From Agelas oroides (taxonomy: Eukaryota; Porifera; Demospongiae; Agelasida; Agelasidae): a DNA stretch of 64,000 nucleotides. Position numbers and translations under genes: made by a program. The stretch is from the NCBI GenBank assembly GCA_949130485.1, contig OX422196.1, positions 8,320,297-8,384,296 on the forward strand, read 5' to 3'. Under the pieces are notes generated by a model, which searched no databases, was not told where the DNA came from, and saw only the letters and a program-made list of their open reading frames with translations. The number at the start of each line of letters is the position of its first letter. Position 1 is the first letter of the stretch. This document shows positions 8,448-49,399 of the stretch, piece after piece.

Positions 8448-11400
8448 ATGATGTCTTCACAGGGAAGCAGTGACCAGGGACAAGTGCCAGCCTCCCCACA
8501 GGAAGGGGCAGGTCAGCAGCAGCAGCAGCGAGCACAACCAAGGCCCTCGTGGTGGCAGATCGGACGTTCTGTGCTGTTCCAAATCATGATCTTTTACTTC
8601 ATCAGCAGCTTCCTCCGCGGTCGCCAGCAGCCCCAGCAGACCCCCGATGGCGCCCCGCCCACCGCAGGACACAATCTGTTCCCTAAAGGACAGAAGATGG
8701 TGGGCGTGGCAGATTGTGTATAAATCGTACCATTACAATCCTTGGCCTGTTCAGTTCTGGGTCTGTAAATTCCAGACCCTTCATGCATTAATGAGAGTAG
8801 CCCAACCCTTACATCATCCAACACTAGCCTCATTCCCAGACCTCTCCTGACTCCAGTTTTTGATCGTTTGCAGTATGCAAAAACTGAGCACAAAGGGAAG
8901 GGAAGGCTTGGGAACAAGGCTAGTCCAAAACTATGCAGCTATGGTTACATCATTCCTGCTCTCAAACTTGTAAATAGCTCTAAACGTGAGCTGCTAGCAA
9001 GATGCTTTCTGGCAGCATAGTCACATTCACTGTCAATTGTTTCACAGACTTGATACAACACATTGCATATCGTCTGTATGAAGTAAGACTGCGCTCACAC
9101 TGTGTGAGTTGGTGAATGGGTGAATAGTCAAAAGAGCTATTGAAGAAGCGTTAAACAAAGTGGAAGCTTTGTTACTAGGCCTCCTCTCTGTGTTTGTATT
9201 CGCAATAATGCAGGGAAGCCTTGTCCCCAGACCTGCCCCACTCTACTCTCCCACTCGTGTTCACCACTCTTCCACTTCTGTGCATTTTCGTTGATGCAAA
9301 CGGAAGAGTAAAAACGGGGCAGGCTTGGGAACGAGGCTAAATAAAGGATGGCCTGGATTGAACAAAAGGTGTCTCTTCTCCATCCATGTGCTCTAGGATT
9401 TGTACGTGTATCTAACAGAAAGTGAAGAGTTCAGGTTTCCACAGGACCAGTCCTGGCTGGTCTGGAGGGAGGAACTGGAGTATGGGAACTGGAATGACGG
9501 CCCACTGAGAGATGGGACTCGGCAGAAGACCACCAATGTAGATGTGCCAGAGGTAAATTGACTTGTCTGTCTGTAGAACTCTGCTGTTGGTCTCCCTAGC
9601 AGCCTATGCATACACACACCGCTGCACCCTCCATGCAGACTATATACCTTCACACAAACACACCTACACCCACCCACCCACCTTCACACATGCACACTAC
9701 CTACACCCACCCACCTTCACACATGCACACTATGTACCTTCACACAAACACACATGCACACTACCTACACCCACCCACCTTCACACATGCACACCTACAC
9801 CCACTCACCTTCACACATGCACACTTACATGTATGTACCTTCACACATACACACCTACACCCACCTTCACACATGCACACTATGTACCTTCACACAAACA
9901 CACCTACACCCACCCACCTTCACACATGCACACTACCTACACCCACTCACCTTCACACACGCACACCCTCACACATACTCTCACACCATCACTAGAATGT
10001 TCAGCACAATGGTACATGGTACATTCATGTACTGCTGGTGAAGTTGGGCTACCCTCTGGACCCAGAGGAAGATGGATACTCTCAACAAGCTATTATCCAT
10101 AAGACCAGCTGTGAGTCAGTAGATCATACGCCTTCCCATCCAGCTAGAGTGAGGATGGGGGTGGGGGGGGGCTGGCTCGTTAGACTGAAGAGTGCATGGA
10201 GGATCTCTCTTTCTCTCAGTGTTGAACAAGTACCGCAAACGGAGGGTGCACAATACAGCCAATCTGCTTACTGGAGAGTCAGACGTCGCTCCAGGATCTA
10301 TCAAGGTTAGGGGGGAAGCCTCATTCCCAGACTAGTGAAGGTGGTCTGGGAATGAGCCTATATGCACAACATCCTGCCCCATACTTAGCCCAGGCTGTTC
10401 CCGCCTCCAGTGTTTGATCGCTTGCAGTAAGGTGAAGGCCTGGGAGAAGAGTCACATGTGTGATGTCAGGTAGACGTGAGGGGGGCGGTGCCCGACAAAG
10501 AATCTTGAGGTCCTTCTTGTAATATCTTGTCCAAGAACTTGAGACTGTAACATTCGAAAGACAGCGTCAATACAGCTCATTGTTTGGTAGACTCGAGGCT
10601 GATCAACGCAAAGTTTGTGAATTACAACGATCGGGCACCGCCCCCCTCACGTCTACCTGACATCACGCACGTGACTTTCTCCCAGGCCTTCCCCCTCCAT
10701 TTTATACTGCAAGCAATCAAAAACTGGAGGCGGGAATGACCTGGGAACGAGGCTACCCCATACTCTCATGCCCATGCAGTGAGTATACGTAATTCCATAG
10801 TGGCTGCCATGGCCAATGTAGACAGGTGGCTGGCTGTTTTGGATGGGATCTCTGAACAGTCCAGGGCATACTATATTTTCCAAATTGGTTACTAGAATGA
10901 ATTTGCTGTTAGCCTCTGTTACTTCTTGTTCCCCGCTCTCTCTCATGAAGGTGCCGCAGGGTAGCAGTGATGTGACTCCAGACATCATCTCCTACTACCA
11001 CCCAAACATCACGGTTAATCTGGTGGACGACCACACCCAGTGGGTGAAAGGATCAGTACCACAGCCCATGGACAAGTGTGAGGGGGGAAGCAGGAGAAAG
11101 GGAATTGGAGGGGGAGGGGAGGAGGTGGAGGGGAGGAGATGGAGGGGAGGAGGTGGAATGCTGATGAGAAGGTTTCAATTATACCATACATAAAACAGAC
11201 CTGCAGTTTGACCCAGAGAAAGGAGGCTATTTTCCGATCCTCTACCTCAATAACTACTGGAACCTGGCCCAGGACTACCTTCCCATCAACGAAACCACAC
11301 CGTGAGCAAGATTACAGTGCTGTGTATGTAATTAGATTATGTGCAATAATTGCTATCTCTGTTCCCTCCTCCTTCCCCATCTCCCATCTTCCTTCCTACA

Positions 11401-12313
11401 CACACACAAGGGAGATCACTCTTAGCATGGTGTTTGCGCCGCTCTCCATGTTCAAGTTCAACATGTATGCAGCCATGACACGAGACAACCCGTGGTCACA
11501 GATGATGGGAGGGGCAGACCCCAGTGACGAGGAGCAGGACACAGTCAAGGTCTGAACACACATGATGCTCACATGATGCTCACGTGATGCTCACGTGGTG
11601 ATCACATGCTGCTCACGTGATGCTCACATGGTGCTCATGTGATCACATGATGTTCACATGATGCTCACATGACTTCATCATAGAGACCACAGAGGTTTCC
11701 AAACATCGTGTTAGTAATAATAGTCTATTCTCTCCAACTACAGCAAACGCTGATGGATACTAATCCCTATCTCCTTGGACTAACCGTCTTTGTCAGCATT
11801 CTACACAGCGTGTTTGAGTTCTTGGCCTTCAAGAATGGTGAGACGGTCTTCTAATGTATCCATGTACAAGATTGTGAGGAGGAAGTTGGTTATCTCAATC
11901 TAACACACACCACAATACACACATACACATAGATGTCCAGTTCTGGCGGAGTCGCAAGTCTCTGGAGGGTCTCTCTGTTCGTTCTGTCTTCTTCAATGTC
12001 TTCCAATCTTTCATCGTCCTGCTCTACATTCTCGACAACGAGACCAACAAAATCATCATCATTAGCGTCTTTGTGGGTGAGGAGGAGACGCACTGTAGTC
12101 TGATGCTCTGCTCTCCCTGCCATGGCTTTGTACAACACTTGTAATTTGTCTACCTAACCAGAATCACCAAAACCCATCAGCATTTCGAGCATGATGCACC
12201 GTATACATATATATAAGCCCCTGACTGCCTTCCTGTTTGCTGGAGCTACTGTCAGCTACAGTGCACTGACAAGGCTGAAATAGTATGTTGTTTACACACG
12301 CATGCGCACGTAT

Positions 12314-12351
<38 letters not shown>

Positions 12352-17317: not shown

Positions 17318-20300
17318 ATGTCGCTACAAGGGACCCTGGAGGAAGCGATAAGAATGAGTGAACGTGGTATTCGCGATCGAATTCCTTCAGGTGGCGGTAT
17401 AAACAGCAGATCTCATGTTGAGAAGGCGTTTCTCGCTGAGTTTAAACCTGATGTCCGGCTCCAAAAGGCGGTGGAGAATCCCTGCGAAGCAACGAGCAGG
17501 GTGAGTCTAGCATATTAAATTTGTCACAAGACGCAAACACCCGAGCAGGTGTCGTTTGATGTGCCTCTCAGGATGCCATTGTTTTCCTCCAGGGCATGAT
17601 TCTTTGACTGCAAACATACTATAAACACCCTAAGGCATGTAGCTGATAGGTACACTGATTCAACTCATGCTGAACTTGTTTCTATAGATTGTGATGCCTA
17701 ACGGTAGCTTCGGTGTTACAGACGCTGGCGAGTGAGTTGATATGCCAACTGGCAAGAGAGGTTTACTATCTCACTTTCTATAGAGGAATTGCATTTACGC
17801 ACATACGCAGTAGAACCAGGGGGCAGTTGCCCCCATAAATTCTAAGGCATTGGAGCATAGCACCTACAATCCGTCAATCGTTCATCGTTCACAGCAAATT
17901 AATGTAGAATGACAGCCCTTTTACTAGTCTCGTGCCCAGACAACTTTTCACCGAGCGGGAAAGTAGTCTGGTGAACTGCCTATACCGTTTTGGTTCCAAT
18001 ATTTTGAAACTACCGTGACGTCACGTCAACTGGATTGTAAATTCAAAAGCGCTCTAGTAAACAGCGAACTCCTAGACAGCCTACTCGTGCTCCTTTCGAT
18101 AGATACAATAGCCTAGTCTACTCACGGCAGCTAGGGTTGCCCGATCAATGTCCATTTCGCTAGTAGATCGTTGGCACGCAATATGGAATGCAATCTTCGA
18201 TGACGTCAAGCATTAAATTAGAAAAGAACAATGCGCCAGCATTCCGGCGCACTTGAACGAAAACGGAATAGGCAGTTCACCAGACCCTTTTTTCCGGCGG
18301 GCGCGCGCGAAAAATGCGGTCTGGGAACGAGACTACCCTTTTACTGTCTTTGCTGATACAACCCTCCCACCTGACACTGCAGTAGCAGCAAGGTTACAGG
18401 TCAACTAAGCATAGGTAGTGGACTCACTGTATGTATGCTAGCTAGCAGACAGTTTAGTTCTGTCTTAAAATAAGTTAGCTCTTGTGTGGTGAACCTTTAG
18501 CCCAGGGTTCTCGCTAGAAATTACTTCCAAATGGTGCATAGTACAATAGGCAGGTGTGAAGCACCCTCTCTACTAGCCTCGTACCCAGGCCACGTGGGAG
18601 GAGGGAAAAGTGGCCTGGTATCCACTGTTTGCGCATGCGTGAACAATTCCGGAAATCTTCGCGAACGAGTCCGATTATGGACAAGTTACACGTGGTTGTT
18701 ATGCGGAGAAATAACCAAACTAGATATACGGCTTGCAGTGTGGCAGCTGTGTTTACGCGGCGATGGCTTCCATTATCAGAGCACATGGGGTGACACGACA
18801 AGGACTACGTTACAACTACCGCCAGTTCCACCGTCACTGTGCTTGTAGTTGAAAACAAACGGCAGAGTCTCGTAGCAGATGGACTTACCAAATCCCGTGG
18901 GTAGCCACGTAGATACATTTGATCGCATCCAGCTGCTCTGCTTTCAACGTGAAATCTCCATTTCCAATACAACAAAGAGCAAACTTGAGCGCTTTATCAA
19001 AGTCCTCGCTTTTACCTGCCCTGTTTGCAAGATAAGCTCGAGACGGACGTGCTTCAGAGCTATACGGTAAAGATTAATGGTTCTTAAACGATGGTATACG
19101 ATACCCGTGGGGTTTTTCGTGCATGCGCAAACAGTGGATATCAGGCCACTTTTCCCTCCTCCCACATGGCCTGGGTACAGGGCTACCTCTCTACACACAG
19201 CTATTGAAGTGGGAAGCCAGGATAGTAATTGCTATGGGCAGGGTTTAGGAAGTGATCCAAATGGTGCTCTTACCTAAATTTACCACATCCAAGCAGTGCT
19301 GCAATTAACCAAATGGTGCAAAACCATCCGCTAAAGGCCTAGCGAGAACCCTGCTTCAGCCCCTAGGTAACCTCGTTCCCAGGCCCTCGCCCAGCTTCCC
19401 GTCGCTTGCAGTACGGTAAAGCGGGAGAGGGCCCAGTACATTTCCTCACGTGAGTGATGTTATGGGTAGAAAGATGGTAGAAAGACTTTAATTGAATGTG
19501 GGTGAGCACGACTAAATTGTTGTTGTGTGTCTTCACTGTCTTGGTAAAACTCTCTGTCCTTCCGACTGTCTCGTGAAGAGCGGCATAAAAGTGCCTTCGT
19601 GCACTGCCATCTTTCGACTTGGAATAGTCGTGCTCCAGTGCGTGCGTGCGGGCGAAGATTTTTGCGGTTTACATGGCGCCCACGTTCGCAAATTTGCCTT
19701 GTCCATGACGTCACTCACGTGAGGAAATGTACCAGGCCCTCTCCCGCTTTACCGTACTGCAAGCGACGGGAAGCTGGGCGAGGGCCTGGGAACGAGGCTA
19801 GCCCCTAGGAGTCTGCAATCACAAAGCACCACACTCACCTAGGTATGACTTAAGGAGAGATACAAGTGCCGTGTTAGGACCAAAACTGGTCTCAAAGGTG
19901 ATCTCGGGACATCTAGTTCGCAACATCTTCTCAGGGAAGCATGACCCCAAATTTCCTAGTTGCTTGTACATCCCACCCTCCACTGAGATTGTTTTCCACC
20001 GCCTTTCATAATGTCATGTACCATTCAAATTGACAACTACTATAAGTTTGAGTAGCATTCCTTTCTTTAAGGGTACTTCTTACTAGCCCTTGACACAATC
20101 TGAAACACAGACCAACCTCGCAATACAATTTTTCTTATTTATTTGCTTTTCCAAACACCAAGCCGTATGCAGAAATACGCAAAAGTGTGGCAGCAATGCT
20201 ATCAAAAAATTCCTCTATTGGTTTTGAGTTTGTAAACTCACAATGGTTTAGAGTAGATTTACTACAGTTGTTACAAGTGACTGGTAGTAATGGGGGAATC

Positions 20301-22754
20301 ACACTCTGACTGTGACCTGTTCCCTCCCTGTAGGGTCCACCTCCATCAGAATGAGAGAAAGTATGCGAGTCAAAGGGGTAGAATGCTCGAAGCGAATAGT
20401 GAGGTAATGAATGAACCCATAGTTACCTCCTACATACTGACTAGCCTCCTTCTCAGGCCTTCGCCACTGTCCAGATTTTGATCACTTACAAGCAGAGGGG
20501 GGAAGGCCTGGGGGATATCACATGTGATACAATGATAGGTAGCCTCATACTGCACGCTGGGTGCGAGGCTGAATGATGGGTAGACGTGAGGGGGGCAGTG
20601 CCTGACAAAGAATCTCAAAGTCCTTTCTGTCATATCTTGTCCAAGGACTGGAGACTGGAGACTGGAATGCTCAAAAGGTTGTGTCAGTACAGCTTGTTGT
20701 TTGGTAAGACTTGAGGCTGATCAATGCAAAGTTATAATGGTTAGTCATCACCCCTCATGTCTGCCCTACCTGACGTCATCGCATGTGACTAAATCTCCCA
20801 GGCCTTCCTTCCCCTTCCATCTGCAAGCGACCAAAAGCTGGAGTCAGGGAACGCCTGGGAACAAGGCTACGTACTGACCTCTGTTCATAACTGAGGAGCA
20901 TGAAGAGCATGAAATTTGTTTTGACTGTACATGACATGATTACGTTACTGTGGGTTGGATCTGTTTTGACTATATAGCACCTTGGACGCATGCTACTATA
21001 TGTGTGTGTAAACAGCAGCTGGTTTTGTAGGTGGGTGTAAGTGGGTACCTACAATGGGACAGTCCAGCAGTGCCTGTTAGATGTGCTGACTCTCTCCATT
21101 GGTTAAATGTAGCTGGTTTTGTAGGTGAACTGAGGGTGAAGATGTGTATCCATCAGTAACAGTCCCTGTTCAATACATATACCTTATTACACGAGTTAGC
21201 GTGCAATATCGCGAGTTATTGCACGAGTGGGCGTGGTATTTTCACGAGCCGAAGGCGAGTGAAAATGCAGCCCACGAGTGCAATAACCGCGATATGCACG
21301 CTAACGAGTGTAATAAAGTATTTATTATCCATTACCACAACAGCGTCGTGTCTCTTCTCACCAAGTCCCGAGTAACTCGCCGTTCGAACGCACTGGTTCT
21401 AATTAAAGCGCACGCTGGTTGCTAGGATATCGCGCGTATATAGCCTCAGGGCCCGTGCAATAACTACCCGTGCAATAACTACCCGTGCAATATCGTGTGA
21501 TATTGCACGGCACGGGAATAGGAAAATACTGTTGTAGAAATATGAACTGGATAATAAATGGTCTTTGTCTCTCTATTAGGTGGTAATAAATGGCAATGCC
21601 TGGTGTGTTACAGCTGATGGAAAGTGAGTTCAGTGACTCCTTAACAACAACAAAAGAAGGCACATTTAATGCTGTTTGTTCACCTGCAGTGTGCGCTCAA
21701 TGAGTGGATTTGGTCACTTTGAGGAGTCTACTAGTCAAAAGAGGCCACCAGTAGTGACGGTCCATACCTCTCCCTATAAAACTACTCATGAGTGTACAGG
21801 GGGTGAGAATGTGTACTCATGAGTGTACAGGGGGTGAGAATGTGTACTCATGAGTGTACAGGGGGTGAGAATGTGTACTCATGAGTGTACAGGGGGTGAG
21901 AATGTGTACTCATGAGTGTACAGGGGGTGAGAATGTGTACTCATGAGTGTACAGGGGGTGAGAATGTGTACTCATGAGTGTACAGGGGGTGAGAATGTGT
22001 ACTCATGAGTGTACAGGGGGTGAGAATGTGTACTCATGAGTGTACAGGGGGTGAGAATGTGTGTATCCATACTGACGTCTGTCTTCATGTTGACTAACCG
22101 GTTATCTATGCATCTGTTTGTGCTGTTTGAATTTAAGGTGGCAATAATGACAATAGTGTTGTGGAAATTCTTGCAACATTGAACACTTTCCTTTGGCTTT
22201 TCACATCCGGATATGACACATCCATGTCACACGCTAGCTAACCAATTCTAATATTATCAGGCAGCCTAATAACTCTGTTCGTGCACATTTCTATGGCTTT
22301 GTTTTTATATAAATAAAATCAGATGATTTTCTAGTGGGGGAGAATAAGCAAGGAGTCTTCAGGCCTAGGCAAAGAGGCTATGAATAGTATGACTAGGACC
22401 AATGGGGGACATTATACTCCTGTAGCCTGTTGTGGGACATTATACTCCTGTAGCCTGTTGTGGGACATTATACTCCTGTAGCCTGTTGTGGGACATTATA
22501 CTCCTGTTGTGACCATGGCATGTCATGAAACCATGCACACAAGCTAGTGCAATCACTGAAAGTTGCATTTTTGCTTCATGCAATGTTCAAAATGGCAACG
22601 TAGTATCCGGATTTCTGTCCACTGTCCATTTCACATTTGGTTACATGAGGTATTGTGTAAGGTCTATAACAACATAAGATTTTTTTTCACTAAGCTTCAC
22701 AGGATAACCAAGTGTTGCTCTTCCCTTACAGATGTGGCTGAGGGTGCTCAGTGA
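17318..22754 (+). CDS. Gene B: unrecognised 158-aa protein with two copies of the shared small exon
   Basis: Unrecognised. Six exons (17318-17500, 17688-17731, 20334-20403, 21580-21623, 21690-21802, 22732-22754) have consistent phases and sum to 477 nt. It starts MSLQGTLEEAIRMSERG and is basic, with no membrane segment. Exons 2 and 4 are both exactly 44 nt, phase 0 to 2, and encode IVMPNGSFGVTDAG and VVINGNAWCVTADG; they look like an internal exon duplication and belong to the class also seen in genes A, C and D. The donor of exon 5 (at 21803) sits in the first unit of a 31-bp minisatellite whose every unit repeats GGGGGTGAGA. Intron 2 (2.6 kb) is packed with foldback elements. The function is unknown and the model is a hand prediction. 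Confidence 0.45.
17925..18335. mobile_element. 411-bp foldback element, TAGTCTC subfamily, exact 9-bp target duplication
   Basis: Ends TAGTCTCGTGCCCAGAC and GTCTGGGAACGAGACTA, flanked on both sides by CCCTTTTAC (17916-17924 and 18336-18344). Within gene B intron 2. No transposase ORF. Confidence 0.85.
18574..19185. mobile_element. 612-bp foldback element with about 75-bp arms and exact 9-bp target duplication
   Basis: The left arm starts TAGCCTCGTACCCAGGCCAC and the right arm ends ATGGCCTGGGTACAGGGCTA. The arms extend through GCGCATGCGTGAAC and its complement. Flanks are both CCTCTCTAC. Both arms carry the variant GTACCC/GGGTAC rather than GTTCCC/GGGAAC. Confidence 0.9.
19368..19800. mobile_element. 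433-bp foldback element with about 95-bp arms and exact 9-bp target duplication
   Basis: The left arm TAACCTCGTTCCCAGGCCCT is complementary to the right terminus AGGGCCTGGGAACGAGGCTA; pairing continues through the GCTTGCAGTACGGTAAAGCG block to CTCACGTGAG. Flanks GCCCCTAGG are identical (19359-19367 and 19801-19809). Confidence 0.9.
20442..20869. mobile_element. 428-bp foldback element, sister of the 10386 copy
   Basis: TAGCCTCCTTCTCAGGCC and CGCCTGGGAACAAGGCTA ends. Flanks CATACTGAC and CGTACTGAC differ at one base. The interior shares GTAGACGTGAGGGGGGC and CATATCTTGTCCAAG blocks with the element at 10386-10755, and a small foldback is nested near 20540. Confidence 0.8.
21184..21320. mobile_element. 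Foldback element with ACACGAGTTAGCGTGCAATA arms
   Basis: Inverted arms of about 55 bp, read from ACGAGTTAGCGTGCAATATC on the left and GCACGCTAACGAGTGTAATA on the right, surround a short GC-rich centre. Further CCCGTGCAATA motifs at 21460-21515 repeat part of the arm. Distinct from the TAGCCTCG family; probably a separate short transposon. Confidence 0.7.
21784..22063. repeat. 31-bp minisatellite, 9 units, each with a splice-donor-like core
   Basis: The unit is ACTCATGAGTGTACAGGGGG plus TGAGAATGTGT, repeated nine times with essentially no divergence, inside gene B. Each unit contains GGG|GTGAGA, a good 5' splice-site match. The first unit supplies the exon 5 donor in the gene B model. Confidence 0.9.
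22398..22508. repeat. 28-bp minisatellite, 4 copies
   Basis: Unit GGGACATTATACTCCTGTAG plus CCTGTTGT in tandem, in gene B intron 5; the last copy is truncated. Confidence 0.9.
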
Positions 22755-25768: not shown

Positions 25769-25783
25769 GACCTACAAGTTGTG

Positions 25784-25859
25784 TAGCCTCGTTCCCAGGC
25801 CTTCCCCGGCTCGCTTGCGATCAAAAACTGGAGCCGGGGAAGGCCTGGGAACGAGGCTA
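25784..25859. mobile_element. 76-bp near-perfect palindromic MITE with exact 9-bp target duplication
   Basis: Left arm TAGCCTCGTTCCCAGGCCTT, right arm AAGGCCTGGGAACGAGGCTA, with the arms continuing through CCCCGGCTC/GAGCCGGGG. Flanks CAAGTTGTG are identical (25775-25783 and 25860-25868). It ends 13 bp before the gene D ATG at 25873. Confidence 0.95.
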
Positions 25860-27547: not shown

Positions 27548-28978
27548 CTAGTGTTTTCTCTTGAAGGGCAGCTGCTTCCGGTCTCTGCTGGCATTCTTCT
27601 TCCTCTTTTTGTTGAGGAACTTCTCCAGTTTGCCTGCCCTCTTCAGCTCTCGGTACTTCTGGGCCAACTCAATCTGCTTCCGGGTGGCTGGAAGGGAAGG
27701 GGAAGAGTATGTGAGGATGGAGGTGTCAGTAACAAGAGCACTAACAGCTCCTACATTTCTTGATGAAGAAGGGCTTCTTGCCCTGTTTCACAAGTTCTCT
27801 CTCTGCCTTCCTGTGCTCCCTCAGCAATGCTCTCCTCTCCTCCTCACACTTCTCGGCAGCTTCACGAGACTCCTACGGAGAAAGGATCCAATATACTTAC
27901 TTGCTTCACAACAAGGCACACAAACCAGCAACCCTGGGAACAAGACTAATGGTGAGCAGACCGTTCCCCCTCTTCATAACATCACAGTCATTTATCCTAA
28001 GTACCACTTACCATTTGCTGAATGAGTGTCTGTAACTGTGCCCTCTTCTCTGGGTTCCTAGCCCTCCTGGCCTCTTTCTGAACCACCTGTTTCTCACTCT
28101 TCTTCATGTTGTCCAGAAATGCATACGACTTCTTAAAGAGACTCTCGTTAAATGACCCTGCCCTCTCATCAAACCGAGGGTCTCTGATCTCCCCATGTTT
28201 CTTAACTGGGACGACATCTCGAAACCTTGGCACCGGCTTCTTGGAAGAGACCTCTTGAGGCCTGAGAGGACGATATGGGAAAAGCATGTCAGGCCATGTA
28301 CTGGTATATGCCAAGAAGAGGGCACGTCTGTGTAGTCTTGTGACCCAACCAGCATCTGGCCACATGAGACTAACATCTGTGGACAGTATGTACCTGTTCT
28401 TGTTTGCTCTCTTGAAAGTACCCCTCCTCTTGACATCTCTCTCTTCCCTGGCCTTTTGCAGAGCAGCATCAAATCTAAAGAAGACCGTTCACACAAACAT
28501 CAAACTAGCCTCATTGCTGGGTCTTCCATGCCTTCACTTTTTGACTACTTGCAGTGGGAACGAGATTACATCAAACCAAATATTAGCAATACATGTAGCC
28601 ATCTTCTAGCTAGTACACCCCACAGTGGTAGCAATTAAACTGCAGGTTTTGGTTGTTATTTTTCAACCCCATTTTTCACATTCTGCATTTCTGCTGTATT
28701 CAGTTACTCCTGGAGACACCCATCACTTACTTTTTACTGCCCACTTTCTCACGAAGCTTCTGCAACTCTCCGAGTGGGATTTCAGAGAGCTCTGTGGGAT
28801 TGTAAGGATAACACTCCAATTAAAGCCCAGCTCTACACGTGGCCCAAGAGTCTAAAAGACGATTGCACGGTCCCAGCTCATTTCTGTTACCTTTCCTAAT
28901 CACATCTTCCGTAGAGCTCTCGTCAGAGTCGCTTTCATAGGACGGCAGCTCTCTGCTACTGGTTGCAGCTGCAGCCAT
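27548..28978 (-). CDS. RRP36: Ribosomal RNA processing protein 36 (RRP36)
   Basis: Six exons on the minus strand: 28978-28891, 28791-28731, 28474-28394, 28261-28012, 27872-27755, 27687-27548; 738 nt, 245 aa. Family blocks are [59 protein letters not shown] and the basic C-terminus [12 protein letters not shown]. The N-terminus is acidic with Ser (ESDSDESS). RRP36 is a nucleolar component of the 90S pre-ribosome needed for early 18S rRNA processing. Its start lies 66 bp beyond the end of ALKBH1, so the promoter overlaps the ALKBH1 3' end. The neighbouring upstream gene is on the same strand. Confidence 0.95.
28505..28568. mobile_element. Foldback MITE copy in RRP36 intron 2
   Basis: TAGCCTCATTGCTGGG and AGTGGGAACGAGATTA ends; diverged, with no clear target duplication. 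Confidence 0.5.
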
Positions 28979-29044: not shown

Positions 29045-31780
29045 TCAGAACTTGTGCTTTTCTGAGACAACCTGTCGCACATTGACATTGATACGAGACA
29101 CAGAGAGGTACTGCACAAACTGAGGCCAGTCAGAGACAAGCTGCTGGCACGAGGGGCAGCCAGTGTCCGTCTCAGGAGGGCCACAACAGGGAGGAGGGCT
29201 CATGTGTGTTCTACTATCACACAAGTCAGTATCATCACAGTGATGGTCAGTATGCTTGTGGATAGCTGCTTCCATTGCTGCAGTAAGGCTTCCTGAACCA
29301 GTTATCAATCGTCGCTCTCCTGCACCTTCTTCTGTAGCCGCCACACTTTGGCTCAGCTGACTAGACAGATCTCTGAACTCTGGTCTTGAGTCCCACTTTG
29401 CTCCACAAATGCAGCAGCTGTGCTCCACCTCCTGCTGCTGCCGCTCAAGAGCTGCAAGAGAAAGACACTCTGGTACTGGACTCTCGGAGGGAGGAGGGAG
29501 CACCCTCGGGACACCATGGAACGCCAGCCGAGACTCCCCTGACATGATGACAATATCTCCACTGTGCAGCAGCAGTGCCTTTGGTTTAACCTGCTTGGTC
29601 CTGCCGCCAACCAGGAAAATAGCAGACTGCCCAAAACTGCAAAAGAAGGAGACAGCCATAAAATGTCATATCCACTCTAAGACTGCCTGGTGCTTCATAC
29701 CTACAACCTAAACAATCACTATAAATTGCTTCAAGCCACAGTAATGTATCATTGGAGATAGTATGCCGTCTAACCTGACAGAGAGGAGAGGGATGGAGAG
29801 ATCTTTTTCAGAGTGGTCAGTGTGCCCAGAGAGGGTTGAGTCCAGGTGATAGTAGTTCACTATAGCAGCCTCCGGAACAAACCTGAAGACACACACAATC
29901 CTACACTGCCACACTAGCTTGTGAGAACTTGCCTCTTTCCCAGGCCTTCAATACCACTGTAAGCTTTTGGTCAATGCAAAACAGAGGAGTTAGGGGCAAA
30001 AACTGGGACAGTGGAGAGGCCTGAGAATGGAGTGTTACATCAAGCTGGGACAGTGGAGAGGCCTGAGAATGGAGTGTTACATCAAGCTGGGACAGTGGAG
30101 AGGCCTGAGAATGGAGTGTTACATCAAGCTGGGACAGTGGAGAGGCCTGAGAATGGAGTGTTACATCAAGCTGGGACAGTGGAGAGGCCTGAGAATGGAG
30201 TGTTACATCAAGCTGGGACAGTGGAGAGGCCTGAGAATGGAGTGTTACATCAAGCTGGGACAGTGGAGAGGCCTGAGAATGGAGTGTTACATCAAGCTGG
30301 GACAGTGGAGAGGCCTGAGAATGGAGTGTTACATCAAGCTGGGACAGTGGAGAGGCCTGAGAATGGAGTGTTACATCAAGCTGGGACAGTGGAGAGGCCT
30401 GAGAATGGAGTGTTACATCAAGCTGGGACAGTGGAGAGGCCTGAGAATGGAGTGTTACATCAAGCTGGGACAGTGGAGAGGCCTGAGAATGGAGTGTTAC
30501 ATCTAGCTGCTTACTTTGAGAACCCAGCTACTTCCAGAATGAATGCGGACAGTCTTGCAAGATCTTCAGGAAATGGAGACCTGCAGTCACTATAGTACTC
30601 CTGTGGCGTGCGGCGAGAGCAAGAGGATGATTGTACCAAACTAATGACGGGGGAAAAACAATTACTGTAGTAGCCTCGTCCCCAGGTTCCCACCCAGTTG
30701 TCTGTCACTTGTAGTACAACTGTACTGTACAACTGTACTGCAACTAGGCAGGGGGCCTGGGAACAAGGCTACTACATGATATGATTCTGTAGTAATCCAC
30801 ACATGCTACTGTACAATGCAAGGGAAATCCCCTCCTCCCTCTCAACCAACACAATACCTTAGTGTTCCAGTCGTAGTGGTACCCGAGGGTCACCCAACGC
30901 AGCTTGTATAGCAGACTATTCTTTGAGAACCCCTTCAAACCATCACTAGAATACAGACACGATACTTGCTCATCAGTAAGTGATCGTACCCGGGTTACAA
31001 TGCTAAACATACCTAGCTACATCAGCTACCTCCTCCTCTGTTGGCCAGATCCTTCCCTCTCCACTCCTCTCCACATGTGCATCCAGGTTACACAAGTTAG
31101 GTCGGCAAGGATAGCTCACCAGACACTGCCGCACCCACCGATGCTGGCAGCCAGACAGAAAGGGATCAGAGACCACTATTAGCCCTGCAAGAGAAGGGGG
31201 TGCTATGAAATCAACTGAAGAGCTATCCAAGTTGGTAGTAAGGCTGACTAGACTGGCACAACTGTTGGTAGTCTGGCGCCATGATTATGTTCATGCTGTT
31301 GCTAGTCTGCTGTGATGACCCCATTTGGAAAAAAAAGAGTCTAGTGATCTGGGCATGAGACTAGGCTGTAACTAATCGTCTTCAAGCCAATGAAGACCAG
31401 TCAAAACGTTGCTAGCTGTGGTCAATCCGGCCAATCTTAGTAATTTCCGTTACTATGGTGTCATGTCTCTTAACAGCAACTACCTTGCACTGATGCAACT
31501 CTGTACATCTTCCAGAGTTGTGGAGAGCTCAGACCAAGAGTGGAAGCCCTCAGAGCACCACCCTCTCCCTCTTCATAGCTCACACAAACTGGGACAACCT
31601 AAAGGGCCAAGAAAAGTCTTCCTCACATGCACTGCCATGCACACTAGACTAGCTACTGACCTCTTCAACAAACTGTTCTGGGTGCCTAAAGTCTATGACA
31701 TCTCTGAGGTCTGCAGAACGTTTCTTGTACCGCTTGAATTCCTCCTTGAAGCAGTCCTGCTGCTCACTCTCTGTAGCCAT
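29045..31780 (-). CDS. ALKBH1: Nucleic acid dioxygenase ALKBH1
   Basis: Seven exons on the minus strand: 31780-31661, 31568-31484, 31184-31013, 30945-30858, 30600-30515, 29882-29775, 29636-29045; 1251 nt, 416 aa. The exon 2 acceptor is the least certain boundary. ALKBH1 is an Fe(II)/2-oxoglutarate dioxygenase acting on tRNA (m1A, m5C) and DNA in nucleus and mitochondria. Visible blocks: CNLDAH, KLRWVTLGYHYDWN, PFPEDL, AAIVNYYHLDSTLSGHTDHS (iron ligands His-x-Asp), SFGQSAIFLVGG, HSGDIVIMSG and the third-ligand region FHGVPRVLP, with the end VSRINVNVRQV. An unusual Cys-rich insertion of about 95 aa (CCICG, HHC, CC, CPSC) separates the last two blocks. Intron 5 contains a 12-copy 42-bp satellite. 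Confidence 0.93.
30003..30506. repeat. 42-bp satellite, 12 copies, in ALKBH1 intron 5
   Basis: Unit GGGACAGTGGAGAGGCCTGA plus GAATGGAGTGTTACATCAAG plus CT, twelve nearly identical copies. The length is a multiple of three, giving long repeat ORFs on the plus strand, opposite the gene. The unit contains GAGAGGCCTGAGAATGG, resembling a foldback-MITE arm, and a diverged MITE left end lies just upstream (29930-29950). Confidence 0.95.
30670..30773. mobile_element. 104-bp foldback MITE (ALKBH1 intron 4)
   Basis: TAGCCTCGTCCCCAGGTTCC and GGGGCCTGGGAACAAGGCTA arms around a palindromic ACAACTGTACTGTACAACTG centre. No exact 9-bp duplication seen. Confidence 0.75.
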
Positions 31781-37781: not shown

Positions 37782-37812
37782 CAATAAAAACACGAGTGCG
37801 CAGACAACCACG

Positions 37813-41129: not shown

Positions 41130-42436
41130 ATGGACGACCATGTTCCCAGCCAGAATGTGGAGACTACCACCAAGAAGGCAGGGAACGTTTGCTCCAGGCT
41201 GTGCCACTGTCTGATGATCTTCCCTCTTCTCACTGTTGCGGTACTAGCGTCGGTCTCTCTCGCGTTTTTCGTAGACAAACAGGACAAAATTGCTAAAAAC
41301 AGTCATTGCATACTGTATGCCACGTACAACAAAAGAGAAACAATTGATTATGGCGATGATACTGGCTGTAATATCGCCATATGGGGCGAGGTTTCGCTGA
41401 TCGTACTTGGAGTGATCCTGCTCATTTGGATGGTAATCAAGGCGGTTCTAGGAGTCCACGTGTAAGCGAGTTCGTCATAGCCTCGTTCCCAGGCCTTCCC
41501 ACCGTCCAGTTTTTGATCGCTTGTATGCAAAAATGCTGCAAGCGATCAAAAACTGGACGGTGGGAAGGCCTGGGAACGAGGCTAAGTTCGTCAGACAAAA
41601 GGTTTACTTAGAGACTACATCATGTCAATGTCCTCTCCCAGAGGAAACCAAGCTCTACACCCTCTCAAAAAGTATTGATCTAGCACAAAATTATAGTTGA
41701 CCATTCTACTTTTCACCTACCTTGACAGGTTGAAAGGGCTGGTCTTCATTGATCTGTTTGGCTTTGGTGTTGGTCTTGTCGCCAGCGTTGGTTTTGCCCT
41801 TAACATCACCTTTGGTCTCGCCCAGACATGCAATGCATTGGGACAAGAACCTTCTGATAAAGGAAGGTACTGTACAGTCTAAACTCACTCGTGCAATTGC
41901 AGCTTAATCTATTTATGGATTTTTATTTTTCTCTCTTGAAAGCTGCAGCAACTTTTATGACTCCTTTCATATATCAGAGGTGAGTTACTTGAAGCTACCT
42001 CCATGCCCATAGAAGGAGGAGGGGTTAATGCATGCCTTAGCCTTGTTCCCAGGCCTTCGCCAGCACAATTGGCATTTTGCATTCCAGGATAAGAATTACA
42101 TAATGTATATATGGTTTTGTATCAATCAAAGACTGGAGGCAGCGAAGGCCTGGGATGATGCTAGGCTAGTCAGTATTCACACTGTGCAGCACTGTTTTGC
42201 AGGTGACAGCCTGGCTGGCTGCTACAGTTCTGTTCTTGATGTTTGTGGTCTATATCTTCCTGACTATTGCCTACTGTTGCCGATGTGCACTTCGTGAGAA
42301 AGGTCCCAAATACTCCAGTTTTCATGATGCTGCTGCACTGCGTCAATCTAAGAAGAGCCCCTTCCATAGTAACTATGGGACAACTGGAACTGCCGCTGAA
42401 CCTACTAAGTCTACTAACCCTTTTAATGATTCATGA
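41130..42436 (+). CDS. TMEM179-like four-pass membrane protein, copy 2
   Basis: Four exons (41130-41461, 41729-41866, 41943-41979, 42203-42436; phases 2, 2, 0) encode 246 aa. The last three introns of copy 1 have the same phases and positions, so the two genes are tandem duplicates, and copy 2 lacks copy 1's first intron. Four membrane segments are visible (CLMIFPLLTVAVLASVSLAF, EVSLIVLGVILLIWMVI, LFGFGVGLVASVGFALNI, AWLAATVLFLMFVVYIFL). The family pattern TCNAL...SCSNFYDSFHISE precedes TM4. The tail is Ser/Thr/Asn-rich and ends NPFNDS, which contains an NPF motif that can bind EH-domain endocytic proteins. Intron 1 contains a perfect 107-bp palindromic MITE. Confidence 0.65.
41478..41584. 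mobile_element. 107-bp near-perfect palindromic MITE with exact 9-bp target duplication
   Basis: The arms TAGCCTCGTTCCCAGGCCTT and AAGGCCTGGGAACGAGGCTA continue as CCCACCGTCCAGTTTTTGAT against ATCAAAAACTGGACGGTGGG. Only a short centre is unpaired. Flanks AGTTCGTCA are identical (41469-41477 and 41585-41593). Confidence 0.97.
42039..42163. mobile_element. Foldback MITE copy (TMEM179-like 2 intron 3)
   Basis: TAGCCTTGTTCCCAGGCCTTCGC and GCGAAGGCCTGGGATGATGCTA arms, with a loop of about 80 bp. Confidence 0.7.
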
Positions 42437-42817: not shown

Positions 42818-43608
42818 CTATACACTCGACTGTTTATAGTCCTTCACATCTAAGATCTGTTTCCCGCACATGGCACAGATCCCCTTCTTGTACGCACATC
42901 CTGTAACACAGAAGGAGGAAGAGGAAGAGGAAGACCCATTAGTACACAAACACTGCTAGTGTACCCAGGCCATGTGAGAGGAAGGAGGTGAGTATGGTAC
43001 ATACCTTGGCAGTAGTGAGAGCCCGCCTGGTGCACGGTCTGCTTGCATATTTTACATTTGGTGAACTTTGTATAGGGCGTGAACCTAGGGTAAGACAACA
43101 GAAGGTAGCCTATGAGAGACCAGCACTTGTACTGTAGTGGCTAGCCTCGTTCCCCAGCCCACATAGCATTTTGTCACTTGCAGTTTGTGCATGGGGAGAG
43201 CATGGGGATGAAGCTATAAGAAGTCATACTTGTGGCTTGTAGTGTGCACTTTAGCTGATGGTGATTTCATGGCAGTAGTATACCTTGCCTTCTTTGAGGT
43301 AAGTGCCTTGTTCTCTCCAACTGTCCTCCCTCCACTCTCTACAGGAGTTCAGAGAATACTATATCTAACCCCACTATGGCGCACCCACACTTGATGCTAC
43401 ACAGACCAACCTATGGTGTTTCTAGCCCCACTCTTCCAAGGGTCTGGGCAAATCACACGACCAAGCTTCTTTTCACCTGTCACAAGTTACCATGACCATA
43501 TGAATAAACAGTTCCACCAAATGAAACGTGATTTACGTATCGACCAAATTCAGAGAGTCAAAATTACATGTACAGTCTAGTCTTAGACTCACATCTCTTG
43601 CACACCAT
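42818..43608 (-). CDS. CRIPT: Cysteine-rich PDZ-binding protein (CRIPT)
   Basis: Five exons on the minus strand: 43608-43593, 43476-43411, 43338-43284, 43084-43005, 42900-42818. They sum to exactly 300 nt, 99 aa (human 101). All conserved CXXC pairs are visible: MVCKRCEKKL, TKCKICKQTVHQAGSHYC and KKGICAMCGKQILDVKDY. The last residues QSSV form the PDZ-binding C-terminus of the family. CRIPT binds PSD-95-type PDZ domains and is also a minor-spliceosome component. It is divergent from PRPF39, another splicing gene, with only 86 bp between the ATGs. Confidence 0.96.
43141..43217. mobile_element. Foldback MITE copy (CRIPT intron 3)
   Basis: TAGCCTCGTTCCCCAGCCC and GCATGGGGATGAAGCTA ends around TTTGTCACTTGCAGTTTG; diverged. 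Confidence 0.55.
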
Positions 43609-43694
43609 CCTCGACAGGTTACGTAATTACAGTGTTTGCGATGACGTAATGAACGTTGAGCGCACGTGACCTTTAATGACGTAATAAGGGCAGC
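43609..43694. promoter_or_regulatory. 86-bp divergent promoter of CRIPT and PRPF39
   Basis: Contains two TGACGTAAT sites (43642-43650 and 43677-43685), which match the CREB/ATF or bZIP half-palindrome, and a CACGTG E-box (43663-43668). With so little space the two genes are likely co-regulated. Confidence 0.6.
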
Positions 43695-45568
43695 ATGGAC
43701 AAGCAGGAGAGTGCAGAAACAGAAACTGCTGAGCCTAAAGACTCAGGTAAGAAGCAAAATCGTCACTGCTAGAGGGAAGATCATAAAGATATTAATGCAA
43801 TTGTACCATAGCTGTTGTATCTTTTGGATGGTGAGTCTGACATCTGCACAAATGAAGGTACCAAGTGATCAGTGGAGTTCGTTTTTTTTTTTTTAACTTT
43901 GCAGTGGACGTGGTGGATGACACAGCTGGGAGTGGTGAGGCTGGTGATGGTGGGAGTGGTGAAGGGGTGGAGCCTGCAGAGGGAGAGGGTTCAATGCCGA
44001 ACGGGATGGAAATAGAAGAGACGAAGGAACCCTCTCAAGGTGAGGAAGTTATATTGATGAACAATTATTACTAAACAAGTCTCAGAGCATCTCCCTGTTC
44101 AATCCACAGTGGCAAAGTGCCTCTACCTCCCCTCCTTTCTTCCCTCCAGCCCCTCCCCCAGAGACCAATCCTCCTGCTGTTGACGAGGACAAACCCAGCG
44201 AGGCTGAGATCAAGTATTGGTCTGCAGTGAAGGAAACACCGTCAGACTTCAGCAGCTGGACCTGCCTGCTACAACTGGTGGAACAGAAGGTGAGAGGAGG
44301 AGGAGGAACTACGCATCCCAGACAAACTGGTGGCTGTTTTTGCTGTGTATTTCTCCTCAGGGGAAGTTGGATCCAGTCCGTGAGGTTTTTGATGCCTTTC
44401 TGGGGTTATATCCTTACTGCTACGGCTACTGGAAGAAGTATGCTGACCTCGAGAGGAAGCATTCTGGCAACGACACAGCCAGAAAGGCGGGTAACTTCAT
44501 GTTCCTCTCCATCATAGCTGTTTGGTAGCCTCATACCTAGGCCTGGGAACAAGGCTACCTCCACCACACGCACATGCACACGTTTGGTAGCCTCATTCCC
44601 AGGCCCCGCCCAGCTTTCCATCGCTTGCAGTGCTCGCACATGAGGAGAGCCTGGAAACAGGGCTACCATTGGAGTAGGTTGGTGTTGTATGACTGGCTTT
44701 TGACCCTCCAAAACAGGTGTTTAAGCGTGGTGTGGAGGCCATTCCACTGAGTGTGGATCTCTGGATACACTACCTTGGCTTCACCAAGACAGTGCAAGGA
44801 GAGGGGACAGAGGGGACAGAGACCATACGAAGGTTGACACTCCCTTACACTGAGCACTGTATCCCTCTCTCGTTCATGACCCTCAAGAGCTTACCCTCGG
44901 TCCCAGGCTCTCCCGAGGGAGAGAGAAATATTTCAGTTCAGAGAGAGCCTGGGATCATGGAGCTAATGTTGGTTCACTTTATGACCTTATATGGCAATCT
45001 TTGTTTCAGCCGAGAGCTCAGATTTGCTCGACAAGTGTGTAAGTTTTGTGCTCATTCTCTCGCTGCCTCAAAATGACGTATGTGTTTATGAATCTATGCC
45101 ATTTTCTGTTGCGCAATGGCTGGTGTGTGTGGCATGTGGTGCCCGGTAGAGACAGCCAGAAGGTAACACCTGATCTCCACCCCACTTCTGATTCTCTTGT
45201 GAGACGCCCAAAGGAGGCAATTCTGCAAACAGACTTTCCCTTTTAGATGAGACTGGGAAACCTCTGTACAAAGATATGGCCTCTTTGGTTCTCTTACAAG
45301 ACTGAACGATGCTTGGTTTGTGGTTGGATAACCCGGCTCCTTCAAACCACACACCACCCACACGCACACGTCTCATTAGCATGTACTATCGTGCAGTAGA
45401 GGCGTGTGGTATGGACTACAGATCCTCCAAGCTCTGGGACTCGTACCTCGAGTGGGAGAAAGCCAATGGCTCCCCACAGCACCTCATGAGGATCTACGAC
45501 ACCCTCCTTGCCACACCCACCCAACAATATCAGCACTACTTTGAAAGGTGTGTCTGTCTGTCTATGTG

Positions 45569-45602
<34 letters not shown>

Positions 45603-48600
45603 TTGAGGGTGGTTGTTCTCTAGCTTCAAGCAGCTGGTGGAGGCTACGCCCCCCAGTGACCTGCTGAGTGCTGAGGAGAAGGAGGAGCTGTGGAGGGCAG
45701 TGGCATCAGGAGACCAGGAGGTGAGGAGACACTGACCCCGCCAGAGCATGTGTCACACACACTGGTAAAGTTGGCCACATTTCTCTACACACACTCCAGG
45801 AGGCTGCAGTGGAGAAGGCTGTGAGGGAGAAGATCCTGGAGAGGAGAAGTGCAGTGCATGAGAGGTGCAAGACAGAAGTGGAGAAGAGATCCCGATTTGA
45901 AGACGGGGTAAGAGTTATCACCTCGCAGTCAACTCCTCCACCTCTTCTCTCTCCAAACTTTCCTCCCCCTTCTCTCTTTTGTCCTTCTCCCTCACCTTTC
46001 TTCCTCTCTCCCTTACTCTCAGTCCTCCCTCTCCATTCTTCTCTCTTCAGATCAAGCGTCCCTACTTCCATGTGAAGCCCCTGGAACGAGCACAGCTGCG
46101 CAACTGGAGGGAGTACCTCGACTTTGAAATTGCCGAGGGCAACCAGCGGAGGATTCTCATCCTCTTTGAGCGGTGCATGGTCGCATGCGCCCTCTACGAG
46201 GATTTCTGGATTAAGGTACACGCGAGAAGCACTAGCGTAGCCTCGTTACCTGGCTCCTCCCCAGGCAAAATAATGTGACCAACAACCTGGGCAGGAGCCA
46301 GGGACAAGGCTATATAGTGCCAGCTTATGACACAATATTCCACAATCTTGCAACCTATCTCCGATGATACACACACGCACACTCCACCATCAGTTTGCAA
46401 AGTATGCTGAAGACAACTGCCCAGACATGGCTCCGTCTGTCTACACTCGAGCTTGCACAGTCCACCTCCAACAGAAACCAAACATCCACATTCTGTGGGC
46501 AGCCTATGAGGAGAAGAGAGGTGAGGGGGGGGGGGGGGGGGGTGTGTGTGTGTGTACATTCCCACTTCCTTTACTTGTGTTGATGCTTTCAAGTCCATGA
46601 AATCTTTGCAGGAAATGTAGAGAAAGCCCGGGGCATTCTGAAGGGTATCGACTCACTTGTCCCAGGGTTGGTGTTGGTGCGACTGAGGCGGATTGGTCTG
46701 GAGGTGAGGGAGCAGAGGTACGAGGAAGCAGAGGCCCTATACTGTGAGTCCACTACCAGTGCTGAGGATACTGAAGCTAGAAACTTCTATGCCTGGAGAT
46801 ATGCACGGTTTGCTGCCAAGGTGAGGAAGATAGGCTGAAGCTCACAACATGTACATAACCTTCACTCCCTCTCCCCCTTCCCTTCCTCCCTTCCCCTCCC
46901 TCTCCCCCTTCCCTTCCTCCCTTTCCCTCCCTCTCCCCCTTCCCTTCCTCCCTTCTCCCTCCCAGGTGCTAGGTGACAATGAGAAGGCAGTTAAGGTGAT
47001 GAGAGAGGCAATAGACCAGGATACATTAAACCCTACACTTTATTTGCGTCTGCTGGATGTGGCCGCCTCTGGCTGTCCCCCGAATGAGAGTGAGGTGGAG
47101 GCCGTGTTTGCTATGGTACAGCGTAGTGACCTCCCAGAGGAAGTGAAGCAGTCGTTCGCTTTGAGGAGGGCTCAGTTTCTGGAGGAATTTGGGTCCAGTA
47201 TCACCAAGTGAGTGAGACATAAGTAATAATGTGTCATTTCTCAGGAATCGGTTGGTAGGTGCTCAAACACGCAGCCACATAGCAGTACTCTTTGCTCCTC
47301 CTCTCCAAAGGGCCTGGGGACGAGGCTACACACTGGTCATCCTGGAATAGTGTGCAATTCCCTGTACAATAGAGGGCCTAGTTTAATCAAACTCTAAATA
47401 ACTTAGTTACTGAGTATTTCTTAAGAATCTGTTGGCACACAAACCCATACCAATGCCTAACACACACACACACATACTGCCACTTAGCACTCATACTTAA
47501 CAAACACTTACACCTCCTTTTCTATGTAGCCAACATTCTGCCAGGAAGTACATCAGGAAACACACTTGTATTGTTAATTATACATGAGGCACATGACCAG
47601 CTTTAAAGAGATGTGGTTCACGTGTACACACACACACACACACATTGTGTGGTCTTCAGTTTGGTGCGTACAATGTTACGTATGCCTATATATTCTATAT
47701 TGGTTTCGTGACATGTAAACACACGTGCTTTCTATGGTCTTCAATTGAGTATAGTGTTACATATAATGCATTCAACTTCACTGCTTCAGTCTCCACACAC
47801 CTCCCTAACACCCGACTGCACTGCCAGCAGTGTGTTTGCTTGTAGTCACTTGTTTGGGGAGTCTGGCCATGAGGTTACCTCACACATTGCACTGCCAACA
47901 ATGCCAGTGTGTCCGACAGCTTCAGTCTCCCTACACTACAGTCTCGTACCCAGAACCCTTCTTGTTTGAGTAGTCGGCTAGGAAGCAGTGTTGTTTTAGT
48001 TTTATGTTCAGACTAGTAGTTTTATGCCTTACTAAAATGCGTTTTAATTTTGGTTTTAGTAAACTAAAACAACACTGCTGGGAAGACTACCTAACACATT
48101 GCAATGACCCTCGGTGATGCCGCCGTGTCTCACTGCTTCAATGTGTGTCTTGCTGCAGGCTGTTGGAGGTGCAGGAGGAGTGCCAGCAACTGAGAAAGAC
48201 GATTGCTGGTACCAGGAAGAGGGCAGCCAGTGAGGCTGACAGGTTAGCCAGCAGAGACCTCTATTAGCCTCGCACCCAGACCTGGCTTCTATTTGTATAG
48301 TCTCATTCCCAGGCTGCGAGGCTGTGAGATAAAATCTGGGAGTGGCCTGGGAACAAGGAGAGAGTTTGTGTACACTATGACAACCAGAGGAGCCATGATT
48401 ATTGACTCTGTCTCTTCCTTTGTTTTGCCTGCACACACGCTGACAGTGAACCTCCTAAGAAGGCAAAAACGACGGAGCCAAATGCTGTCACCCCCTCGCT
48501 CCCTCAGGATCAGCAACAGCAAGCTCAACAGTGGGCGGCCTACCAACAGCAGTGGGGAGGATACAGCTACGGACAGCAGGTAACATACCTAGAACTGCTA

Positions 48601-49399
48601 AGTGCAGAGAATGTAAAAAAGCTAGTCTTGAATGAAACAGTACACTTTGTATCTCATTGTAGTCTCATGCCCAGACCCCCACCCTGACTTAGCACAACCA
48701 AGAAAGCGCTCAGTGGTCACCAGCCCCTTTTCCTCGTGAGATGAGGGTGGGGTCTGGGCACGAGACTAATCTCATTGCAGACCACTTGTTGGGACGTACC
48801 TAGCTATGCAAATTCCTGCTCCCAGCCCTCCCCCACCCCTAGCTTTCATCAGCAAACAATAAAAGACTTTATCGCTTGCTAATGAAAGCCTGTTCCCAGC
48901 TGGCAATGGAATGAGAAGAGTGGAATGGAGGGAGGATGTGGCAGGAAGACGACCAGTGTGTAAAGTCATGGCCTCTTTGATCACTGGGGTCTTTGATAAA
49001 ATTGCAGTGAAGTCGCGGCCACTTTGATCACTGGGGTCTTTGATAAAATTGCAGTGAAGTCGTGGCCACTTTGATCACTGGGGTCTTTGATAAAATTGTA
49101 GTGAAGTCGTGGCCACTTTGATCACTGGGGTCTTTGATAAAATTGCAGTGAAGTCGTGGCCACTTTGATCACTGGGGTCTTTGATAAAATTGTAGTGAAG
49201 TCGTGGCCACTTTGATCACTATGGCTTGAATAGCCCGCTTACCCACAGGAATGAAGTGAAACTCAATGAGTGTCATTACTACAGACGGTAGTGTGTGCTG
49301 GTGTATGATCCATTCCTCACCCTCTCCTCCCACCTGCAGGGCTACACTGGCTACCAGCAACCGTACTACCAGTACCCATACGGACAACAGACTCAATAG
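43695..49399 (+). CDS. PRPF39: Pre-mRNA-processing factor 39 (PRPF39), U1 snRNP-associated HAT-repeat protein
   Basis: Sixteen exons: 43695-43746, 43905-44039, 44150-44289, 44361-44486, 44717-44832, 45010-45038, 45397-45547, 45624-45720, 45800-45907, 46051-46215, 46394-46520, 46612-46820, 46966-47207, 48159-48242, 48447-48579, 49340-49399; 1974 nt, 657 aa (human 669). The protein is a HAT (half-a-TPR) superhelix that helps U1 snRNP recognise 5' splice sites. Diagnostic blocks: [81 protein letters not shown] and [11 protein letters not shown]. The N-terminus is acidic and the C-terminus Q/Y/G-rich ([15 protein letters not shown]). The exon 4 donor appears to be AAAG|GCGGGT, a GC rather than GT donor, because the GT four bases on breaks the frame. 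Exon 6 is only 29 nt. Confidence 0.94.
44587..44668. mobile_element. Foldback MITE pair in PRPF39 intron 4
   Basis: TAGCCTCATTCCCAGGCCC and GAGAGCCTGGAAACAGGGCTA ends. A second, minimal copy (TAGCCTCATACCTAGGCCTG to GGAACAAGGCTA) sits just before, at 44526-44558. Confidence 0.65.
46239..46313. mobile_element. 75-bp foldback MITE (PRPF39 intron 10)
   Basis: TAGCCTCGTTACCTGGCTCC and GGAGCCAGGGACAAGGCTA arms. The inner arm CTCCTCCCCAGG / CCTGGGCAGGAG is also paired. Confidence 0.75.
47220..48158. other. PRPF39 intron 13 (long intron)
   Basis: Holds a CA repeat near 47465 and 47630, a one-armed foldback end (GGGCCTGGGGACGAGGCTA near 47310-47329) and a palindromic element at 47989-48082. No nested gene seen. 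Confidence 0.4.
47989..48082. mobile_element. Short palindromic element, CAGTGTTGTTTTAGTTT arms
   Basis: CAGTGTTGTTTTAGTTT on the left and AAACTAAAACAACACTGCTG on the right flank about 50 bp of A/T-rich sequence that is itself partly palindromic. The CAGTG start suggests a hAT-like MITE, but no target duplication was found. Confidence 0.6.
48660..48768. mobile_element. 109-bp foldback MITE, TAGTCTC subfamily, exact 9-bp target duplication (PRPF39 intron 15)
   Basis: Ends TAGTCTCATGCCCAGACCCC and GGGGTCTGGGCACGAGACTA, flanked by ATCTCATTG on both sides (48651-48659 and 48769-48777). Both arms share the GCCC/GGGC variant. Confidence 0.93.
48965..49219. repeat. 47-bp minisatellite, about 5.4 copies (PRPF39 intron 15)
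   Basis: Unit AAGTCGTGGCCACTTTGATC plus ACTGGGGTCTTTGATAAAAT plus TGCAGTG. Each full unit contains TTGCAGTG or TTGTAGTG, an acceptor-like AG. Confidence 0.9.

Follow-up and report, generated by a model that had tools for sequence, protein, structure and literature searches.

An abundant foldback-type family of miniature transposable elements with 9-bp target duplications in the sponge Agelas oroides

Foldback structure with target duplications of nine base pairs (bp) is known from Mutator-like elements and from the FB elements of Drosophila. Tm1, a Mutator/Foldback element of Meloidogyne, has foldback ends, a Mutator-like element (MULE) transposase and 9-bp target duplications (PMC3169594), and Muta1, a MULE of Aedes aegypti whose excision and reinsertion have been assayed in yeast, makes duplications of 8 or 9 bp (PMC5225508). 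In the current study, we describe a family of miniature inverted-repeat transposable elements (MITEs) from the sponge Agelas oroides, first seen in a 64,000-nucleotide stretch of its DNA (C14:8320297-8384296; hereafter the window, in which position 1 is the first base) and then followed in the 259-Mb genome (141 contigs).

The family resembles Tm1 in its 9-bp duplications, its composite inverted-repeat ends and the preponderance of MITE-like non-autonomous members. Tm1 differs in its asymmetric 7-bp end motifs and tandem Motif C units, whereas the sponge family has short ends with a hairpin; Tm1 is also a low-copy family, 61 elements from two species having been analysed, and includes a member that encodes a transposase, whereas tens of thousands of copies and no coding member were found here (PMC3169594). 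With Muta1 the family shares 8–9-bp duplications, a palindromic terminal motif and derivatives with variable middles (more than 300 putative ones for Muta1), but the 145-bp ends, the nine 12-bp subterminal tandem repeats and the known transposase reported for Muta1 were not seen in it (PMC5225508). Tetris/DAIBAM, a Foldback system of Drosophila virilis, is similar in that foldback repeats seed satellite arrays and that the ends are common to a smaller MITE; its array unit is an internal repeat of ~220 bp, whereas one array found here repeats an entire element plus one 9-bp duplication (PMC4079207). The sponge family is of a known kind, and what is unusual about it is its end architecture and its very small members. 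No description of it stood among the papers listed in literature searches, and the end-motif strings had no match in the paper texts searched.

Abundance and insertion signatures

We consider it likely that these sequences form one superfamily of non-autonomous DNA transposons, cut-and-paste in type, which is very abundant, has been active recently and has inverted TAGYCTCGTNCCCAGR ends, a 9-bp target duplication (occasionally 8 or 10 bp) and, most likely, a MULE-type mover. A first-pass annotation, made from the window alone, had proposed a repeated family with common ends, and the counts bear this out: TAGCCTCGTTCCCAGG matches the window 64 times at up to three mismatches, against 0.32 expected from shuffles, and has 15,889 exact copies genome-wide, against none for the reversed pattern. 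Density was sampled in twenty 10-kb stretches at chosen round coordinates on contigs C1–C5 (200 kb in total), where 12 exact copies were seen and 12.3 were expected from the genome count. In the same sample, the degenerate motif TAGYCTCGTNCCCAGR marked 82 ends at up to two mismatches (reversed motif, 0) and 110 at three (reversed motif, 13), and the 82 ends extrapolate to ~106,000 genome-wide, or about one recognisable end per 2.4 kb. The window is denser than average, with 65 such ends at up to two mismatches in 64 kb, its tandem array included. At this density, it also contributes many small palindromes to the genes of this animal and their surroundings.

The exact 9-bp duplications that the annotation had listed for the window elements starting at positions 10386, 17925, 18574, 19368, 25784, 41478 and 48660 were all recovered, as were the partial ones at 20442 (8/9) and 8825 (7/9). 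The flank comparison that it had proposed was run on 343 kb of sequence, which is not a random sample (loci L001–L008 were taken around exact ends, later loci around transposases) and which, with the window array left out, holds 138 end pairs 30–1600 bp apart. The excess at 9 bp is clear: 22 pairs match at 8/9 or better (shuffled 0.20), two of them contributed by a single locus (L028) with the same left end, and 16 match exactly (shuffled 0.02), while flank lengths of 6–8 and 10–12 bp yield 0–3 matching pairs each. Identity between the 9-bp flanks is 60% in the 46 innermost pairs, versus 28% when shuffled, and at none of the other lengths from 2 to 13 does the mean go up. Membership of the hAT superfamily was rejected on duplication length, as 2 pairs match exactly at 8 bp and 16 at 9 bp, no search for a hAT transposase having been made.

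An uninterrupted site provides a complementary signature in one case. On C18, a 323-bp element within a MULE copy (L058, 3775-4097) has GGGTCAAAG on both sides, and a relative of that copy on C1 (L059; 96.9% identical over 2,160 bp) is uninterrupted, with a single GGGTCAAAG and no element. Together with the 138-pair comparison and the flanks of the smallest members described below, this supports the proposed foldback-type MITE family with 9-bp target duplication; members are short, non-coding (as judged from four frames), inverted at their ends, flanked by duplications and present in high copy number. Movement appears to be recent, because one 120-bp arm type, which forms the right end of the window element at 17925..18335, is 100% identical at 11 or more genomic places, itself included, among the candidates scored (40 each of the 585, 788 and 541 in the arm searches).

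End anatomy and the smallest members

The size range first given, 44–612 bp, proved too narrow, as members go down to 32 bp and extend upwards to 833 bp in L027 (9/9 duplication) and 1043 or 1440 bp in L028 (8/9). Those with duplications in the 138-pair test fall into two classes, 41–137 bp and 323–1440 bp. The accompanying statement that most elements are nearly pure palindrome holds for the short members, each of which appears to be one hairpin bearing both termini, but not for those above ~300 bp, in which two end arms enclose an unrelated middle. Long inverted arms of the foldback type were found in two long members (98 nucleotides (nt) at 95% and 73 nt at 90%) and in a short one (46 nt at 100%).

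In the longer members, a typical end comprises ~10 outer bases and a hairpin, with CCAGRCC at its opening and GGYCTGG at its close, followed by unrelated sequence. When arms of elements longer than 250 bp were tested against shuffles in which the first 18 bases stay fixed, 16 of the 28 had a stem at p ≤ 0.05 and 12 had one at p ≤ 0.01 (15 and 11 of the 27 distinct arms, one L028 arm being listed twice). The inner stem was assessed separately in 51 distinct arms, selected by the closing motif alone and with the tandem array left out: over the seven bases that follow the constant part inwards, pairing is 0.451, versus 0.293 ± 0.024 with the 3′ sides re-dealt (0/2000). The inner stem thus varies in sequence between copies yet pairs above its control, a result that counts as support and not as a probability because arms that are related do not vary independently.

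Of 32 short members whose interior is large enough to compare, 18 match the interior of a long-element arm there, or 14 of 28 once the 4 lying inside the matched element itself are removed. Single-hairpin members could have arisen if the sequence between the GGYCTGG arm of an end hairpin and the matching motif at the opposite end was deleted. By the alternative route, longer members would derive from two single-hairpin elements moving as a unit, as is suggested by some long members in which the sequence just inside the closing motif resembles a terminus (for example GGGAACA, or GGAACGAG in L028).

The smallest members, of 32–46 bp, are little more than two ends back to back. Two ends separated by 0–14 bases occur at 114 places genome-wide, and the reversed pattern at none; 50 of the 114 were listed, 7 of them in one array, and the flanks of 39 of the other 43 were read. 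A 9-bp duplication is present at 8/9 or better in 25 of these 39 and exactly in 12, against a shuffled mean of 0.98, and in 20 of 34 at 8/9 or better when mini-elements with shared flanks (five share one, two another) are counted once. The shortest is a 32-bp perfect palindrome between 8-bp direct repeats, GGGGAGGT, and one 34-mer has an exact 10-bp repeat.

Such members may be immobile, left behind when longer palindromic insertions lost their centres in place, long palindromes being unstable, and we give this explanation a little under an even chance. The centres of the mini-elements are very variable, the end hairpins of longer members contain short repeats able to drive such loss, and deletion in place would also preserve the flanking duplication. 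A point on the other side is an identical 36-mer that lies at two loci (L067 and L068) in opposite orientations and with different duplications (8/9 and 9/9), although the same deletion could have arisen twice. A bolder proposal, which we hold only tentatively, is that a self-contained 16-bp end with its adjoining hairpin is what the transposase acts on, so that a perfect or near-perfect palindrome of 32–46 bp, in which two ends meet without an interior, suffices to move, and that end recognition may depend on hairpin structure and not on a fixed sequence. If so, such palindromes would be naturally occurring near-minimal mobile DNA in an animal; they would set a lower bound on the substrate needs of a eukaryotic transposase and offer naturally varied ends on which to test whether the hairpin is itself read.

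The candidate mover

MULEs generate target duplications of ~8–11 bp, usually 9. The MULE-type mover suggested in the first-pass annotation is compatible with what was found, because 9 bp, the length obtained in both the 138-pair test and the mini-elements, is the usual MULE length and because the genome holds MULE and Mutator matches; no MULE with these ends as its own was seen in the stretches read. Transposase domain matches number at least 119 for MULE (PF10551), at least 44 for Mutator (PF20700) and at least 23 of Merlin type (PF12762). A transposase encoded elsewhere, most likely of the MULE superfamily, would recognise the ends and cut the target with a 9-bp stagger. A MULE is a plausible mover, a best guess from the duplication length and the Tm1 and Muta1 parallels and not a result.

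Several observations weigh against this account. No MULE, Mutator or Merlin locus has these ends as its own among the stretches read, which lie around 11 of the 119 PF10551 matches, 2 of the 44 PF20700 matches and 1 of the 23 Merlin matches, four further MULEs being sampled by 400-base stretches nearby; for L030, L054, L055, L056 and L058–L060, the termini of the element itself were not established. Among 1001 long end pairs (>800 bp) in the tested stretches, duplications at 8/9 or better occur only at 833, 1043 and 1440 bp, and five longer pairs reach 7/9, about chance level by our own estimate. The part of the genome searched yielded no coding element that has these ends, comparison by eye of the arm-search matches (again 40 of each search) with MULE positions gave no autonomous copy, and four long members, represented by one open frame apiece, had no Pfam match up to E 0.1. 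Ends of the form TAG...CTA are untypical of MULEs, and E0, alone among the other MULEs here in having a duplication that can be read, has 10 bp and not 9. Among 45 adjacent short end pairs (≤160 bp), 35 lack a 9-bp duplication at 8/9 or better (10 have one, 3 more reach 7/9 and one, at 63303, has an 8-bp duplication); part of those without are hairpins inside a larger dispersed repeat, and part have presumably decayed or were falsely paired. The end hairpin, finally, is not significant in 12 of the 28 arms, and a simpler hairpin count gave 24/87 versus 12, 9 and 3 in controls, an excess of only about two-fold or more, on which we do not rely because the included tandem array raised its controls.

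E0 is the nearest comparison within the genome, being a MULE nested in a TAGTCTC element, but it differs from the family in its 41-bp ends, GGGATTCGC, its 10-bp duplication, CTCTGGCAAT, and its coding frames. The 5,330-bp interval C1:21931457-21936786, with perfect 16-bp TAGTCTCG ends and MULE, CXXC and OTU frames, was first taken as an autonomous member; that claim was dropped when the C20 copy revealed the coding part with its own ends and 10-bp duplication, nested in a MITE of ~380 bp. The E0 copies run from L029 433 to L032 1382 (C1) and from L051 1949 to L052 3159 (C20), their aligned pieces being 97–99.9% identical, and the frames match ALS2CR8, MULE, a CXXC zinc finger and an OTU protease, with a SWIM match below cut-off. 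In other proteins, the CXXC zinc finger binds unmethylated CpG. A further MULE family (L031/L057) starts with GGGAGACAATTTA. In the PF20700 family, a 20-bp inverted repeat differs in sequence from these ends; two Mutator copies (L061 1650-4301 and L062) are 98.5% identical over 4 kb, with an 883-aa frame whose C-terminal part resembles, by eye, a YqaJ-type nuclease.

It is improbable, though worth weighing, that the same MITE family is moved by another superfamily with an 8–9-bp stagger, such as Merlin (IS1016-like, with a transposase of IS1595 type). The Merlin-type matches in the genome, the few members with 8-bp repeats and the lack of a MULE with these ends in the stretches read would fit such a mover, whereas the family duplication is 9 bp with few exceptions and the one Merlin locus read of the 23 has unrelated ends (ACGAAGTCCGG) and an 8-bp duplication. 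That locus (L053 794-2191) is a compact Merlin-type element of 1,398 bp with ends ACGAAGTCCGGAAGCC and the exact 8-bp duplication AGCGCGCT. That the motif is a host regulatory or structural hairpin and not a transposon is very improbable, since the 9-bp duplications and the uninterrupted site are insertion signatures that contradict it for the class as a whole, whatever its enormous copy number and recurrent hairpin geometry might suggest, although individual copies could be co-opted by the host.

Arrays, window elements and other occurrences

On C7, an array of 12.1 copies of 49 bp repeats a 40-bp element plus CATGGCAAC, one copy of the 9-bp duplication, with some units ending in C instead of A. 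The window array (57020..57583; 8.7 copies of 64 bp) starts with an element and its duplication, a 43-bp element at 57008..57050 with an 8/9 duplication (ACTAAATGC/ACTAGATGC), and its unit comprises most of such an element plus extra flank, without the left terminus. Recombination or slippage between the two copies of a target duplication would yield arrays of element plus 9 bp, and the array of that form offers a direct view of a single insertion turning into a satellite.

The window elements are given here without strand. The 370-bp two-arm element at 10386..10755 has a rearranged left terminus (TAGCCCAGGCTGTTCCC) and a canonical right one; the end pattern missed it because of that left end, and its duplication, CCCCATACT at 10377..10385 and 10756..10764, was found by reading the sequence directly. 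Exact 9/9 duplications also flank a 411-bp TAGTCTC-type element (17925..18335; CCCTTTTAC), a 612-bp element (18574..19185; CCTCTCTAC), a 433-bp element (19368..19800; GCCCCTAGG) with a significant right arm hairpin (p 0.000) and a left one that is not (p 0.12), single-hairpin elements of 76 bp (25784..25859; CAAGTTGTG) and 107 bp (41478..41584; AGTTCGTCA; 46-nt arms 100% complementary), and a 109-bp TAGTCTC element (48660..48768; ATCTCATTG). A 428-bp element (20442..20869) has an 8/9 duplication, CATACTGAC/CGTACTGAC, and a 98-bp single-hairpin element (8825..8922) one of 7/9. The 8-bp repeats of a 63-bp element (28506..28568; CATCAAAC) and a 66-bp TAGTCTC element (63303..63368; TGCACACA) lengthen to 9 bp when the final A of the right end is assigned to the target.

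The window is intron-bearing eukaryotic DNA, because, of its frames with Pfam matches (CLPTM1, PRP39, trehalase, FSH1 and an RRM protein), several are split into exon-like pieces. The annotation had suggested that the family shapes the introns of this genome to a large extent, and family ends do lie between such pieces: the 10316-10755 element between CLPTM1 frames at 9397-9558 (a weak match) and 10942-11079; two short end pairs without duplication (44526-44557 and 44588-44665; together 44526..44665) between PRP39-like frames at 44208-44525 and 44717-45076; and one end (59921) between trehalase frames.

The larger dispersed repeat mentioned above (~300 bp aligned, with an internal hairpin of ~52 bp of this end type) occurs at L019:150-450, L025:550-850, L028:5620-5920, L013:4640-4940, L020:5540-5840 and L014:3180-3510, the L014 copy having a 32-bp part duplicated. 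Outside the sponge assembly, viral contigs scanned for 18- and 20-base motifs gave no match. The 18-mer is present in 13 bacterial-genome contigs, of which 12 lack an oppositely oriented second end and seem to be matches by chance. The remaining one, L038, is the only one with an end pair and carries one element of the same family (5800-6175) with an exact 9-bp duplication, GTATGCACC. It is filed in a Cycloclasticus symbiont bin from a poecilosclerid sponge and has weak immunoglobulin-domain matches below Pfam cut-offs; because of the element and these frames it looks like host DNA, so the symbiont bin is probably contaminated. Elsewhere in the window, positions 30011-30595 hold a long in-frame tandem repeat of ~12 copies with the protein unit ERPENGVLHQAGTV.

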